From: an uncultured Pelagibacteraceae bacterium
GTDB lineage: Bacteria > Pseudomonadota > Alphaproteobacteria > Pelagibacterales > Pelagibacteraceae
Assembly (NCBI GenBank): GCA_902562205.1
Contig: CACESO010000005.1
Location: 26,251 to 90,250 of the forward strand
Length of the DNA stretch: 64,000 bases
Direction of reading: 5' to 3'
Part shown: piece after piece, positions 907 through 7,696 of the stretch
Layout: each line of letters begins with the position of its first letter
Numbering within the stretch: the first letter of the stretch is position 1
Program-made: the position numbers and the translations under genes
The notes under the pieces: model-generated
Seen by the model: only the letters and a program-made list of their open reading frames with translations
Told to the model about the DNA's origin: nothing
Database searches by the model: none

Positions 907-1635
907 ATGAATTTTTCTATAGAAATTGGGCCTAAAACAGATCTATCAACTCTGCCGGAACTAAAAGATGTCTATATAACAATGTTGCCTGGTGGGGATT
1001 TTAAAGAGACGGCAAATCAAGCTGTCCAACTAGTGAAGAAAGGTTTCAACCCTATCCCTCATTTTCCAGCAAGATCAATGGAGAATGAGCGCCAGTTAAA
1101 AGAGTATGTGAGCATCTGTAAAGGTGGGGGGGTTAAACAGGCTTTAATTATTGGAGGGGGCCGTGAACCAGCTGGTAAATTTGATAGCTCATTTCAACTT
1201 TTAGAGACTGGTTATTTTGAGAAGATGAAGATAGGAATTGCTGGACATCCTGAGGGGAGTCCTGATATATCCGATTCAGATTTGGAAAAAGCTATGCAAG
1301 ATAAAAAGCCTTATGCTGACTATATAGTAACTCAATGGTTACTTGATCCTCAGCCAATCATAGATTTTATTTCTAAACAAACAGTGCCAGTGCATGTTGG
1401 AATTACTGGGCCTCTTAAGATATCAAGCTTAATAAAATTTGCTAATATTGTAGGTGCAAAAAATTCCATAAATTTCCTTAAATCTAATTTTAGTAAGGCT
1501 CTAGATTTATTGAAACCTAAAGACCCAAATGATCTAATTGATAAATTAAAAGACCATACAGAACACTTTCATATTTATACATTTGGAGGACTTAAGGAAA
1601 CAAACAAATGGTTAAAGGATAATAACTATGCCTAA
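907..1635 (+). CDS. methylenetetrahydrofolate reductase (MetF)-like protein
   Basis: At 242 residues this is shorter than typical MetF (about 290), but it follows the family pattern: a start strand with E6 (FSIEIGP), VYITMLPGGDF, PIPHFPARSM, a Gly-rich ALIIGGGREPAG, IGIAGHPEGSP and YIVTQWLLDPQPI. MetF interconverts 5,10-methylene-THF and 5-methyl-THF using FAD. Its stop overlaps the start of the GcvT/DmdA-like gene by 8 bases, so the two are translationally coupled. The pairing suggests that it oxidises the 5-methyl-THF made by the demethylase, feeding methyl carbon into C1 oxidation; that direction is an inference. A separate biosynthetic MetF may exist elsewhere in the genome. Confidence 0.8.
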   Translation: MNFSIEIGPKTDLSTLPELKDVYITMLPGGDFKETANQAVQLVKKGFNPIPHFPARSMENERQLKEYVSICKGGGVKQALIIGGGREPAGKFDSSFQLLETGYFEKMKIGIAGHPEGSPDISDSDLEKAMQDKKPYADYIVTQWLLDPQPIIDFISKQTVPVHVGITGPLKISSLIKFANIVGAKNSINFLKSNFSKALDLLKPKDPNDLIDKLKDHTEHFHIYTFGGLKETNKWLKDNNYA

Positions 1636-3079
1636 AAAAAAGAAAGTAAGTTCGAAAAAAAGAAAGCCAAAAAAAGTGGCTAAATTAAAATCTAAGAAAG
1701 TCAGTAAGCCAATGTCAAAAGGCAGAATAATTGAGAAAGTAGATTATTCAAAAGTTTCTCATTCTACTGCTGTTGATCAATCTGATAGACATGTTCCATA
1801 CAATTTAAGACAAAGTGGTCCAACTCAAGTTGAAATGTTAATTTCTACAAGAGTTAGAAAATCTCCTTACTGGCATTTATCTATGAAAGCTGGATGTTGG
1901 AGAGCAACTGTTTACAATAGAATTTATCATCCACGAGGTTATGTAAGACCAGAAAAAGGTGGAGCGATGGTTGAATATGAGGCTATTAAAAAACATGTAA
2001 CAATGTGGAATGTAGCAGTTGAAAGACAAATAAGAGTAAAAGGTCCAGATGCTGAAAAATTTACAGACTACGTTATTACAAGAGATGCAACAAAAATTTC
2101 TCCAATGCGTGCTAGATATGTAATTTTATGTAATTACAAAGGTGGTGTCTTAAATGATCCTATTCTATTAAGAATATCTGAAGATGAATTTTGGTTTAGT
2201 TTATCGGATAGTGACATTGGCCTTTATCTGCAAGGTGTTAATGCTGACAAAAGATTTAATGTAGAAATTGATGAGATAGATGCATGTCCAGTTCAAATTC
2301 AAGGTCCAAAATCTAAGGCTTTGATGAATGATTTAATAGGAAATCAAGTTGATTTAGACAATATGCCTTTTTATGGATTAGCTGAAGCTAAAGTTGGAGG
2401 GAGAAGTTGTGTGATTTCACAATCAGGTTTTTCAGGTGAAGCTGGATATGAAATTTATTTAAGAAATGCAACTTTATATGCAGAGGATATGTGGAATGCA
2501 GTTTTAAAAGCTGGAAAAAAACACAATCTAATGGTTATCGCTCCAGCCCACCACAGAAGAATACAAGCAGGTATTTTATCTTGGGGTCAAGACATGGATA
2601 ACGAGCATAATCCATTTCAATGTAACTTAGGTTATCAAGTTTCATTATCTGGAAAAGGTGTTTGGGAGAAACAAAGAGACTATGTTGGTAAAGAAGCTTT
2701 GGAAAAAATGAAAAGTGAAATATCTTCTGGAGGAAAACCTTACAAACTTCAACTAGTAGGAATGGAACTCGGAGGAAAACCAATAGAGGAATATGCACCT
2801 GATTTTTGGTTAATATCTGAGGATGGAAAGAATCCAGTAGGATTTATTACATCGCCTTGGTACCATCCAGAAAAAGGGACTAACATTGCAATGGGGTATG
2901 TGCCGTTCGATGGAACTTTGAACAAGAATGGATTTCCAATGGGCAAAGTTGGAAGAAAATTTAAAATTCATCTTCCGAAGAAATATTGTGAAAAGGGAGA
3001 TGATCCGGTTGATGCTGTGGTCGTTGATATACCTTTCACAGAGTCATACAATCCTAATACAAGAGAAGTTGCTAAATAA
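1628..3079 (+). CDS. GcvT/DmdA-family tetrahydrofolate-dependent demethylase with Lys-rich N-terminal extension
   Basis: A 483-residue protein. About 70 residues of unusual N-terminus come first; the first 30 are almost all Lys, Ser and Arg (MPKKKKVSSKKRKPKK). The GcvT fold follows, starting near STRVRKSPY, with VTMWNVAVERQIRVKGPDA, VQIQGPKS, SGFSGEAGYEIY and a C-terminal barrel. The core resembles DMSP demethylase DmdA and related GcvT paralogues, which move a methyl or aminomethyl group to THF. Bona fide DmdA is about 370 residues, so this is a longer paralogue whose methyl donor (DMSP, a methylated amine, or another) is not settled by sequence. It is coupled to the MetF-like gene and followed by a strong terminator. 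Confidence 0.75.
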   Translation: MPKKKKVSSKKRKPKKVAKLKSKKVSKPMSKGRIIEKVDYSKVSHSTAVDQSDRHVPYNLRQSGPTQVEMLISTRVRKSPYWHLSMKAGCWRATVYNRIYHPRGYVRPEKGGAMVEYEAIKKHVTMWNVAVERQIRVKGPDAEKFTDYVITRDATKISPMRARYVILCNYKGGVLNDPILLRISEDEFWFSLSDSDIGLYLQGVNADKRFNVEIDEIDACPVQIQGPKSKALMNDLIGNQVDLDNMPFYGLAEAKVGGRSCVISQSGFSGEAGYEIYLRNATLYAEDMWNAVLKAGKKHNLMVIAPAHHRRIQAGILSWGQDMDNEHNPFQCNLGYQVSLSGKGVWEKQRDYVGKEALEKMKSEISSGGKPYKLQLVGMELGGKPIEEYAPDFWLISEDGKNPVGFITSPWYHPEKGTNIAMGYVPFDGTLNKNGFPMGKVGRKFKIHLPKKYCEKGDDPVDAVVVDIPFTESYNPNTREVAK

Positions 3080-3237: not shown

Positions 3238-3783
3238 ATGTTTGGATTTTTTTTAGAATTAGTTTTCAGATCAATAAAGCTTGACAAAAAACTTTATAGA
3301 GAAGTTAAAACTTTCTCTGAAGTTTCAATTTATTTTGCTGCTATAATAATGATACTAGATGGTGTTGCGGGGGCGATTGCTACCAATAATTTTTACAAAA
3401 CTTCATTAAGTCTCTCGGCATTAACTGCTATTTTGACTTGGTTTTTTTGGGCAGTGTTGATATTTACAATCGGTGCTAAAATTTTCCCTGATAAAGATAC
3501 CAAGGTCACTTTTAAAAAAATTTTAATTGCAGTAGGTATTGCTCATGCCCCTGGATTATTAAGATTTATAGCATTGACTCCTGACCTAGTCATGCCAATA
3601 ATTTTTTTAACGCAATTTTGGATATTTGCCTCATTAATAATTTCAACTAAAGAGGTCTTAAATTTTAAATCAAATATTAAAGCTTTTGGGATAGTTTTTT
3701 TATCCTTTTTAATATTAGCAATTTTGTCTGTTTCTTTTGTGATGAGTAGGTTAAATAGTTTGCCTATCAGTAATATAACCTAA
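3238..3783 (+). CDS. YIP1-family integral membrane protein
   Basis: A 181-residue protein with about five hydrophobic segments: residues ~28-48 (SIYFAAIIMILDGVAGAIA), ~60-82, ~93-108, ~117-135 and ~148-170. The arrangement, with a soluble basic N-terminus and a conserved-looking AHAPGLLRF loop, matches small bacterial YIP1/YIPF-like proteins, whose biochemical role is unknown. It is preceded without spacing by a membrane microprotein. Its stop overlaps the stop of the opposite-strand cysteine microprotein by four bases. No catalytic motif is visible. Confidence 0.65.
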   Translation: MFGFFLELVFRSIKLDKKLYREVKTFSEVSIYFAAIIMILDGVAGAIATNNFYKTSLSLSALTAILTWFFWAVLIFTIGAKIFPDKDTKVTFKKILIAVGIAHAPGLLRFIALTPDLVMPIIFLTQFWIFASLIISTKEVLNFKSNIKAFGIVFLSFLILAILSVSFVMSRLNSLPISNIT

Positions 3784-3929
3784 ATGGGAAAGATCGTTTT
3801 AGAGATTTTACAGGAAGTACAAATTTTATATCCAAACATTAATAAATTTTGTGAAACACTTTCATCTTTACAACCACATTCCTCGCAATTATCATCGAGA
3901 TAATCTTTATCGTTTTTAATCTCAGTCAT
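3780..3929 (-). CDS. 49-residue Cys-rich zinc-ribbon-like microprotein
   Basis: Absent from the ORF track. ATG at 3929 lies inside the end of the DUF3726-type gene (8-base overlap), and the frame closes at 3780, overlapping the YIP1-like stop. The product is acidic at its start (MTEIKNDKDYLDDN) and carries CEECGC and, 21 residues later, CTSC, five cysteines in two clusters that could bind one zinc ion or an iron-sulfur cluster. The reading frame, coupling to the upstream gene and cysteine spacing all support a real protein. It ends a four-gene operon of unknown function, so a metal-binding or partner role there is plausible but unproven. Confidence 0.6.
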   Translation of the reverse strand: MTEIKNDKDYLDDNCEECGCKDESVSQNLLMFGYKICTSCKISKTIFPI

Positions 3930-4530
3930 TATCTGTTAATCCTGCACCAGCTGAAGTTTTTTTTGAACTTTCGGTTTCATCTACAAAAGTTTTTTGTGAT
4001 ATTTTATATAAAGTATCCCATGTTATTTTATCGAAATTATCTTCGTTTTGATTAAAACTAATAAAAAAGTTTGTTGTTTTAGAAACTAATGAATTGTCAA
4101 AATTTGAAAATATAGATTGATTATAATTAAATAAAAATTTGAAATTTTCTAAATTTAATAAAATTTTTTTACCAATCATCTCTGATGATCTTGATAAAAA
4201 TGGGACAACTAAAAGTGGATAAGCAAGATTTGAAAAATTGACGTTTTCAATTTTTTCTAAGTTATAAGCTTGATCCAAGAAATTCACACCTACGCTTATT
4301 GGGCAATAAGGAATGTTATTAGAAATATTGTCAGCAGATATTATTGTTATCTTTTGATAGTTATGATTATTAATTTTCTCTAAATAGTTTTTTAGATGTA
4401 AGATGCCTGGCAGACCAAACATTTCTAATAGTCTGACCGACTTTCCAATTTCTTCTGAAACACCCCATGAGAAACCTGCTCCTCTAGAAGCTCTCTTAGA
4501 AATTGTCTCTATTTCACTAAAGGATCTCAT
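3922..4530 (-). CDS. DUF3726-type protein
   Basis: A 202-residue soluble protein whose N-terminus (SEIETISKRASRGAGFSWG, then EEIGKSVRLLEMFGLPG) matches my memory of the DUF3726 family, found in alphaproteobacteria without a known function. No catalytic motif, signal peptide or membrane segment is evident. Its start shares one base with the stop of the 553-residue gene (TAATG), and its end overlaps the cysteine microprotein by eight bases. The tight packing suggests a stoichiometric partner of the neighbouring proteins. The C-terminus is a low-complexity Ser/Lys/Ala tail. Confidence 0.65.
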   Translation of the reverse strand: MRSFSEIETISKRASRGAGFSWGVSEEIGKSVRLLEMFGLPGILHLKNYLEKINNHNYQKITIISADNISNNIPYCPISVGVNFLDQAYNLEKIENVNFSNLAYPLLVVPFLSRSSEMIGKKILLNLENFKFLFNYNQSIFSNFDNSLVSKTTNFFISFNQNEDNFDKITWDTLYKISQKTFVDETESSKKTSAGAGLTDND

Positions 4531-6191
4531 TAATTCAATGAATTATAAATCCAATTATCGTTAAATTGTTTTAGTTCATCAGGTAATGGGGCGCCTTGAA
4601 ACATGCAAATTCTAAGCCATTTGTCAGATCTTGGGTCAAATTTACAAGCTCCAAAAAAAGAAAGTTTAAGTCTAAGCATATCAATTGGCATTAACTCTGA
4701 GCCAATTATATTATCCTGAATTTCTGAATAAGGAAATTTTTCTATCATAAAAACTCGTCTTACTGCATGTCTAAGATCATTATTGTCTGCAAGAAACCTA
4801 CTTATTGACATGCTGTTCTTAAGATCTTTAATTCTTAAATAGAGAGATTTAACATCTCGTGCTATTGCTAATGGTTGTTCAAGTTCAGATCCAATTTCTT
4901 CAAACCTATTAGCCACTCTTGGCTCTTCTTTATTTTTTGAAATGAACCAAAAGTTTTGAATGTTTTTATCCTTGTTAAAATCAATATCCAGTATTTCTGT
5001 ATAGTTTTTTTCAATAAGTTCTCTTAAATCCTCAATTTTTCTTTGAACAGGGATATTAAAAAATTTTTCTTCATCAGCACTCATAGTGGGAGTTAATTGG
5101 GCGACAATTTCATTATAAGGCTCAAGGAACAAGCTAACCACATACTCAATACTTTCTTCTGTTAGATTTGTATCTACCCAATTAAAAATTATATTGAACA
5201 AGTATTCTTTTTTCTTGTCTAATTCTTGCTCTAAATATTTAATAAATTTGATGAGATCTTCTCTTAAATTTTTAATTTTTTCTTTTTGGTAATCACTATC
5301 TGTATTCCAAGTATTTATATTATTTATAGAATTCTTTAGACATTTAAAAAAATAGTTGAAATCATCTTGTTTTACATCTTTAATCTCCCTTATTTTTTTT
5401 AAGGCTGTTTCTCTAGCTAATATCCAATTATTTAAAAGTATTGGATGATTTACTATAAACGGTGCCATTCCCAATCCGGTGGAATTTCCAATTCCTAAGC
5501 TTCTTGCAATGCTCTTATCTAATTCAACGGCTTTTCTTGGATTTTTATTTTTTGAGATAAAATTTACCTGGTCAATTGTAAATTGTCTCACAAAATATAC
5601 TAACATCATTTCTAATCTAAATGGTCCATGTATTTCTGGCCTATTTTTAATTCTAAAACGGTCAGCTAGACCAAATTTACCTGATCCGTATACAGCGGTC
5701 GTTCTATATAAATATCCAATTTCAGATAATTTTTTTGTGGAGGGTTGATTGCCATTTGATAAACATTCTACAACATAGTTAAAGGCTCTCATTGATTTGT
5801 TTGCTCGTGATAGTGTCAATTCTTTATAAGTCATTCGTCCTGTTTCTTGATGCGGAACATTTAATGACAATCTTTCAATATCCTTTTTTGTTGGAATACC
5901 ATCGTACAAAGTAAATGATGCATCCCATTTTGTTGCTATTACCCTATCTGACCTTTCGTTATCATCTAATTTATTTGCAAAACAAACCAAAGAGTATTTT
6001 CTTTTTTCTTTTCTAAAAGAATAAACGGCAACACCATATCCATTATTATCTAATTCGAATAGCTCTCTTTTATAATCCCAGGAATAAAATTCTCTCAAAA
6101 AGGATCTTAAAAATGAAAGTTTTGATTGGTGGAAAGAACCAAGTCGTTTTAATTTCATTATTTTTTTTGGGTCTCTTAATTCAATTTGCAT
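4530..6191 (-). CDS. 553-residue conserved-looking protein of unknown function
   Basis: I do not recognise a family. The protein is soluble and charged, with no signal peptide or membrane helix. The most conserved-looking part lies at residues ~120-250: RMTYKELTLSRANKSMRAFN, YGSGKFGLADRFRI, HGPFRLEMMLVYFVRQFTID and a Gly-rich LGIGNSTGLGMAPFIVNHP. The middle (~290-400) is helical and Lys/Glu-rich, and the C-terminal ~100 residues contain RHAVRRVFMIEKFPYS and end in FKFDPRSDKW-like text. The Gly/Asn/Thr loop could bind a ligand, but this is not evidence of a function. Start and stop each overlap neighbours by one base, so it is the central gene of the M19-orphan-DUF3726 operon. Confidence 0.7.
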   Translation of the reverse strand: MQIELRDPKKIMKLKRLGSFHQSKLSFLRSFLREFYSWDYKRELFELDNNGYGVAVYSFRKEKRKYSLVCFANKLDDNERSDRVIATKWDASFTLYDGIPTKKDIERLSLNVPHQETGRMTYKELTLSRANKSMRAFNYVVECLSNGNQPSTKKLSEIGYLYRTTAVYGSGKFGLADRFRIKNRPEIHGPFRLEMMLVYFVRQFTIDQVNFISKNKNPRKAVELDKSIARSLGIGNSTGLGMAPFIVNHPILLNNWILARETALKKIREIKDVKQDDFNYFFKCLKNSINNINTWNTDSDYQKEKIKNLREDLIKFIKYLEQELDKKKEYLFNIIFNWVDTNLTEESIEYVVSLFLEPYNEIVAQLTPTMSADEEKFFNIPVQRKIEDLRELIEKNYTEILDIDFNKDKNIQNFWFISKNKEEPRVANRFEEIGSELEQPLAIARDVKSLYLRIKDLKNSMSISRFLADNNDLRHAVRRVFMIEKFPYSEIQDNIIGSELMPIDMLRLKLSFFGACKFDPRSDKWLRICMFQGAPLPDELKQFNDNWIYNSLN

Positions 6192-7159
6192 TAATTAATA
6201 CCTTTGTAAAAATTATACCAGTTATTGCCCAATATTCCATTAATCTCATCCAAATTAAATCCAATTTTTTTAAGTCCGCTCTCAATATTTTTAAATCCTC
6301 TAGCATCTTTAAACCAACTGGGTTGGTCTGGGAAGCCTACATTATTAGTTGTTCCTTCTCCGTAAACCTTTTTTTTTGTCCAAGTTCCATTCCTCATCCA
6401 TCCTACAATCTCATCCGGCTGGTTTAAACACAAGTCTGAACCTATACCAAGATTTTTTACATCCATTATTTCAGTAGTCCTTGCAATCATTTCACAAAAA
6501 TTATCTAATTTACAATTTGAATTGTCATTAAGATGATGAGGGTAAAGAGAAAATCCTAACATGCCTCCACTTTGAGATAATGTTTTAAGCAAATCATCTG
6601 ACTTGTTTCTTTTTGCTTTATGCCAAAAATTTGGGTTGGAATGAGTTATTGCAATTGGTTTTTGGCTTAATTCAATTGCATCAAATGTGCTTTTTTCACC
6701 CGAATGAGACATATCAATAACAATACCTACCCTATTCATTTCTTTTATTGCTTCTTTACCAAAATTAGTTACTCCACTATCAATTTTTTCATAGCAACCA
6801 GAGGCTAATAAGGATTGGTTGTTATAAGTAAGTTGCATAAATCTACAACCAAGTTCATGAACCTTCGCAATAAGATTTATATCATCCTCAATTGGCGAAC
6901 AATTTTGAAACCCAAAAAATATCGCAGTTTTGTTATTTTTCTTTGCTTTCTCAATATCTCTAAAGTCCTTTCCTAAGAAAATTAAATCATCATGGTTTTT
7001 AAAGTGTTCTTTCCATTCTGAAATTCTTTTTTGTAATTCATCAAAATCTTCGTGATATACTATTGTGACGTGAACCGCGTCTAGTCCAGCCTCACGGTTG
7101 ATTTCAAAAACTGACCTATCCCATTTACAATATTGCAAGTTGTCAATTTTGAAATTCAT
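6191..7159 (-). CDS. peptidase M19 (renal dipeptidase)-family protein with incomplete metal site
   Basis: The ORF track begins at 7255, but residues before MNFKIDN are unlike the family and would overlap purE; I start at ATG 7159 (322 residues). Later motifs are M19-like: VIDMSHSG (H152), IAITHSNP (H173), the following KAKRNKSDD and LGIGSDL. Two expected metal-binding elements are missing: the N-terminal HxD is replaced by QYCKWDR, and the bridging Glu of the GVEGGH motif appears as Gln (FFGFQN, Q85). Classical M19 enzymes are di-zinc dipeptidases; this one may use one metal or a different chemistry. It is the first gene of the operon, divergent from purE by 48 bases. Confidence 0.75.
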   Translation of the reverse strand: MNFKIDNLQYCKWDRSVFEINREAGLDAVHVTIVYHEDFDELQKRISEWKEHFKNHDDLIFLGKDFRDIEKAKKNNKTAIFFGFQNCSPIEDDINLIAKVHELGCRFMQLTYNNQSLLASGCYEKIDSGVTNFGKEAIKEMNRVGIVIDMSHSGEKSTFDAIELSQKPIAITHSNPNFWHKAKRNKSDDLLKTLSQSGGMLGFSLYPHHLNDNSNCKLDNFCEMIARTTEIMDVKNLGIGSDLCLNQPDEIVGWMRNGTWTKKKVYGEGTTNNVGFPDQPSWFKDARGFKNIESGLKKIGFNLDEINGILGNNWYNFYKGIN

Positions 7160-7207: not shown

Positions 7208-7696
7208 ATGAAACTTAAAAAACATCCAAAAATAGCAATAGTAATGGGTAGTCAATCGGATTATTCAACTATGAAAGATTGTGTTAAAATTTTAAAAAAT
7301 TTAAAAATTAGTTTTGATGTGAAAATTGTATCAGCGCATAGAACACCAAAAAGACTTTATGAATTTGCAAAAAAATCAGAGACAAGTTACTCAGTTATAA
7401 TTGCTGGAGCTGGTGGATCTGCTCATTTGCCTGGCATGATTGCCTCTTTAACAACTGTACCAGTTATTGGGGTTCCGGTTGAAAGTAAAAAACTAAAAGG
7501 TCTTGATAGTTTATTATCAATAGTTCAGATGCCAAAGGGTATTCCTGTTGGAACTGTTGCAATAGGAAAAGATGGTGCAATTAATGCCGCAATATATGCT
7601 GCATCTATTCTTGGCATAACTGATAAAAAAATAAAAAATTCCTTGCTGAAATTAAGAATTAAACAAACAAAATCAGTGAATAAAAAACCAAAATAA
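7208..7696 (+). CDS. purE: N5-carboxyaminoimidazole ribonucleotide mutase
   Basis: A 162-residue class I PurE. It carries the phosphate-binding [10 protein letters not shown], the family hallmark [12 protein letters not shown], and [15 protein letters not shown] followed by [10 protein letters not shown] and a [14 protein letters not shown] loop. It converts N5-CAIR to CAIR in de novo purine synthesis in the cytoplasm, using the product of PurK, which is encoded three bases downstream. Length and motifs are normal, with a Lys-rich tail of about 20 residues. Divergent from the M19-family gene. Confidence 0.95.

Follow-up and report, generated by a model that had tools for sequence, protein, structure and literature searches.

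A conserved gene trio in SAR11 and other bacteria is most likely a catabolic cassette for homarine

Three adjacent genes in the genome of an uncultured member of the Pelagibacteraceae, encoding an M19-like protein, a 553-aa protein and a DUF3726 protein, form a real module. Widely conserved, this trio is a catabolic cassette whose substrate is most likely homarine (N-methylpicolinate); it is therefore probably part of a published pathway. We consider it likely that the three genes are the core of an operon for breakdown of an N-methylated betaine-type compound, with homarine the best candidate, and that they match the published homarine genes. Homarine is an abundant N-methylated solute of marine phytoplankton that is released by algae, and SAR11 are among the most numerous ocean bacteria. 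If correct, the assignment would tie three poorly annotated families to homarine use, which could then be followed through genomic and metagenomic data, and would single out a 553-aa family lacking structural relatives as a probable key enzyme.

The window, i.e., the whole 64,000-nucleotide stretch of DNA analyzed, is part of contig 5; the genome, 1.03 Mb in size and 89% complete, has its nearest relatives among the Pelagibacteraceae. Four successive frames on one strand were considered:

6191-7159, (-) strand: M19-like gene, 322 aa, with a Peptidase_M19 match
4530-6191, (-) strand: 553-aa protein gene of an unnamed family, with conserved motifs
3922-4530, (-) strand: DUF3726 gene, 202 aa, with a PF12525 match
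3780-3929, (-) strand: Cys microprotein gene, 49 aa, with two CxxC pairs

As an earlier, sequence-only reading of this DNA had noted, these frames overlap along 3780-7159 (-) by 1, 1 and 8 bases. The start listed for the M19-like gene, a TTG at 7255, gives a longer frame, but in relatives the gene begins where the window has its ATG at 7159. At its other end the microprotein frame shares 4 bases with a convergent membrane gene (3238-3783, (+) strand). The four frames did not arise by chance, because they are kept at about 80 Pelagibacteraceae loci, where the 553-aa protein is 59-96% identical. With few exceptions, the order at these loci is purK-purE, then M19-553aa-DUF3726-microprotein, then membrane protein-DmdA-like-MTHFR-like. 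Two strains (L053 10430-13775 and L106 10430-14505) carry 3.3-4.1 kb of extra DNA between the microprotein and the convergent membrane gene, which at other loci share 4 bases.

The sequence-only reading had taken all four genes as one unit, which did not hold, since the microprotein stands at the same locus in two genomes that lack the trio. Its four cysteines are invariant across 45 distinct SAR11 sequences, and it was also found in SAR11 genomes without the 553-aa gene. In G337 (99% complete) and G399 (97% complete) it is flanked by the membrane protein and purE, the trio alone being missing, giving the order DmdA-like, membrane protein, microprotein, purEK. The trio is therefore a cassette that was gained or lost, and the microprotein is a local neighbor gene outside it. 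The 8-base overlap and the two conserved CxxC pairs would suit a modified-peptide system of four genes, in which the Cys microprotein is a precursor modified or cut by the products of the other three genes. However, we regard this as highly improbable: it is contradicted by the trio-free loci of G337 and G399, the operon has no recognized maturase, and none of the trio loci read outside SAR11 had a microprotein alongside, nor was one annotated in the operons of the named bacteria listed below.

The trio itself is linked far beyond SAR11, as the gene-neighborhood check suggested by the sequence-only reading showed. In a sample of 289 alphaproteobacterial genomes, DUF3726 occurred in 32 and the 553-aa family in 39, including all 32 with DUF3726. 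At every locus read the 553-aa gene adjoined DUF3726, and nearly all of these loci had M19 alongside; in Mesorhizobium 131-2-1 the 553-aa and DUF3726 genes are fused into one. Because of this fusion, DUF3726 is probably a partner of the 553-aa protein.

In other bacteria the trio belongs to a fuller operon, in the order LysR, aldehyde dehydrogenase, M19, 553-aa and DUF3726, usually followed by an Ldh-family reductase, and often with a BCCT or ProXWV betaine transporter beside it, in some cases also genes for N-methylglutamate dehydrogenase (Mgd). Five enzymes and a regulator were seen in Aliiroseovarius, Mesorhizobium (where two of the five are fused), Aminobacter, Roseateles and Pararhizobium, whereas the window locus has only three of the five. 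Plasmid copies were found in Phaeobacter inhibens DSM 17395, Aliiroseovarius crassostreae, Mesorhizobium 131-2-1, Shinella, Aminobacter, Roseateles XES5 and Pararhizobium. In these named bacteria, the M19 and 553-aa genes are annotated as membrane dipeptidase and hypothetical protein. More distant trios, with 553-aa family members about 25% identical, were present in Sinorhizobium meliloti (L163 9944-20744) and Bosea (L179 9004-16186), beside a different type of ABC transporter; Sinorhizobium adds aminotransferase, SSADH and RidA genes. These distant trios are probably the same machinery applied to another substrate.

The 553-aa protein was confirmed as an orphan: no Pfam or NCBIfam family and no PDB relative was found, and a profile of the family gave only chance-level matches against PDB and Pfam. 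Its alignment contains many invariant, enzyme-like motifs (e.g., RTTAVYGxGKxG, GNxTGLG, EPR and FDPxSDxW), and it is probably a key enzyme of the cassette. The structure model, built on an alignment limited to SAR11 relatives, had a pLDDT of 58 and a pTM of 0.50; it was too poor for use, and a fold search with it against PDB gave nothing below E 0.001. Profiles of the 553-aa and DUF3726 families showed no homology between the two, and the 553-aa family was found neither in phage records nor in a search of viral contigs.

The M19-like protein matched Pfam Peptidase_M19 with an E value of 7.5e-71 over 300 residues, the match beginning at profile position 37. Alignment with renal dipeptidase (1itq), in which the metal-ligand roles of the aligned residues are known and D288 is the catalytic Asp, showed that the bridging Glu, E125, is changed to Gln85 and that the HxD motif is replaced, in agreement with the earlier description of an M19 homolog with a changed active site. 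In contrast, H198, H219, R230 and D288 have unchanged counterparts in H152, H173, R184 and D242, so that the protein shares with renal dipeptidase the second-site His ligands as well as the Arg and catalytic Asp, but not the usual two-metal dipeptidase site. The HxD motif and bridging Glu are replaced throughout the M19-like subfamily, which lacks the two-metal site, and because both are gone at most one ordinary metal site is left. The closest solved structure was 2i5g. A correspondence with the glycine-betaine-cluster dipeptidase of Pseudomonas was rejected, as 2i5g does not have the conserved HxTxxYHE segment.

The DUF3726 protein matched PF12525 with an E value of 7.4e-22 and ends in a conserved GAGLTDND tail. 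Its AlphaFold model (pLDDT 84) was good except in this tail, and in a Foldseek search ranks 1-21 were all Ldh_2-type enzymes, although the best had an E value of 4e-3 and a TM score of 0.45, with none at E 0.001. Comparison of the DUF3726 and Ldh_2 profiles (hhalign) gave an E value of 6e-4 and a probability of 30%. DUF3726 is shorter than the Ldh_2 enzymes (about 200 versus about 340 aa) and at most about 13% identical to the fold matches; on these comparisons, a shortened relative of the Ldh_2 fold is probable, though short of proof. No paper on DUF3726 was found in the literature searched.

The remaining enzymes of the fuller operon resemble better known families. The nearest models for the aldehyde dehydrogenase were alpha-ketoglutaric semialdehyde and 2,5-dioxovalerate dehydrogenases, although it fell below their cut-offs. 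The Ldh protein is a clear member of Ldh_2, a family that includes ureidoglycolate, malate/lactate and delta1-piperideine-2-carboxylate reductases, and its closest solved structure was the last of these, whose family also acts as N-methyl-L-amino acid dehydrogenase. Sarcosine-oxidase-like genes of the MgdA/MgdC type adjoin the operon in Aliiroseovarius, Roseateles and G161; in the SAR11 genome G207 such genes are 11 kb away from the trio. In a tree of eight sequences with a midpoint root, these genes clustered, with full support in both subunits, with a G030 copy next to mgsABC-like genes (recognized by eye), apart from other sox genes. The Roseateles operon cluster also contains purU and folD.

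Among 147 SAR11-family genomes, MgdA was present in 38 of the 45 with the 553-aa gene, compared with 15 expected, although shared ancestry of the genomes inflates the significance of this co-occurrence. Where both genes were on the same contig, 27 of 29 pairs were within 15 kb, the usual distance between trio and Mgd being 14 kb or less. No gene of the MgdA type was found in the window's genome (89% complete), where contig 8 carries just the sarcosine type; nothing there passed the gmaS cut-off, and the ALDH and Ldh homologs were only distant; similarly, Mgd was not found in G379 (97% complete), which has the 553-aa gene. Mgd also serves in methylamine use, so that the linkage is not specific to homarine.

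The homarine operon homABCDER, which Ferrer-Gonzalez et al. are said to have described in 2026 (Nat Microbiol), reportedly comprises five enzymes and a regulator, gives N-methylglutamate and glutamate as products and has hosts including Rhodobacterales, SAR11 and SAR116. The trio operon resembles this pathway in having five enzymes and a regulator, betaine-type uptake, Mgd nearby, and roseobacter and SAR11 hosts, but differs from it at the window locus, with three enzymes only and no Mgd found in the genome. According to a further paper (PMC13390433), Mgd acts in the breakdown of homarine; this paper cites Ferrer-Gonzalez et al. (Nat Microbiol 11:1531-1546, doi 10.1038/s41564-026-02313-7). Because the operon's five enzymes and regulator, its betaine uptake and imine reductase, and the Mgd link agree closely with the published pathway, we infer the link to homarine strongly but short of proof. 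The sequence-only reading had guessed at an amino-acid-derivative pathway, and this guess holds up; its suggestion of an undescribed system probably fails, given how the operon content and Mgd linkage agree with the published pathway.

Whereas the operon with its conservation, the lost metal ligands, the family assignment of reductase and dehydrogenase and the Mgd linkage were observed, which compound is the substrate, in what order the steps run and what each trio protein does are inferred. Homarine would be taken up by the betaine transporter, and the trio would open the N-methylpyridinium ring and remove one carbon. A carbon must be lost on the way from homarine (seven carbons) to N-methylglutamate (six), a loss that would fit the M19-like protein, with no more than one ordinary metal site, acting as an amidohydrolase on an N-formyl (or lactam) intermediate. 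The 553-aa and DUF3726 proteins would form one enzyme complex. The ALDH, of the alpha-ketoglutarate-semialdehyde type, would oxidize the C5 aldehyde, the Ldh-family reductase, of the DpkA type, would convert the N-methylimine to N-methylglutamate, and Mgd would yield glutamate and methylene-THF. The absence of Mgd from the window's genome and G379 would mean that another enzyme takes the product, or that the substrate of this clade differs; strains with the cassette but no detectable Mgd raise the question of the fate of the N-methyl intermediate.

In the trigonelline (tgn) pathway of Acinetobacter, the N-methylpyridinium ring is opened by a two-component flavin monooxygenase, followed by an aldehyde dehydrogenase and an amide hydrolase. 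The route proposed here shares the ring opening and the ALDH and amide hydrolase steps, whereas the trio operon has no such monooxygenase gene. As a tentative suggestion, to which we give rather less than even weight, the 553-aa, DUF3726 and altered M19 proteins may form a ring-opening complex with no recognizable flavin, heme or non-heme-iron oxygenase part, i.e., a new enzyme class, of which SAR11 retains a reduced three-gene cassette.

The betaine transporters and DpkA-type reductase would also suit breakdown of another N-methylated betaine or cyclic imino acid (e.g., N-methylproline, hydroxyproline betaine or trigonelline) along similar lines: the betaine would be taken up, its ring opened to give a semialdehyde for the ALDH, the imine reduced by the Ldh-type enzyme and the methyl group removed by sox/Mgd-type enzymes. 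Some copies have MttB-like, dimethylglycine-dehydrogenase-like and FAD-oxidoreductase genes nearby, which is consistent with this, as is the lack of a detected Mgd in the window's genome, and the distant Sinorhizobium and Bosea trios, with another transporter set, imply that the module can serve other substrates. However, Mgd linkage in three separate lineages as well as SAR11 points to an N-methylglutamate product; we therefore judge a different substrate unlikely and retain homarine. A search of the literature for hydroxyproline betaine found nothing. No earlier account was found in the literature searched of the trio-free loci, the close SAR11 Mgd linkage, the absence of Mgd from the window's genome, the lost M19 metal ligands or the likely Ldh-fold origin of DUF3726.

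Next to the trio locus, the MTHFR-like and DmdA-like genes (window 907-3079) overlap by 8 bases and remain a pair from one SAR11 locus to the next. With a score of 242 bits, the product of the DmdA-like gene is below the DMSP demethylase cut-off of 410. Several SAR11 enzymes carry a lysine-rich N-terminal tail of strain-variable length (window 1628-3079, L168:3139-4857 and L199:12612-14455), namely this DmdA-like protein and, at other loci, an aldehyde-dehydrogenase-region protein and two genes near gmaS.
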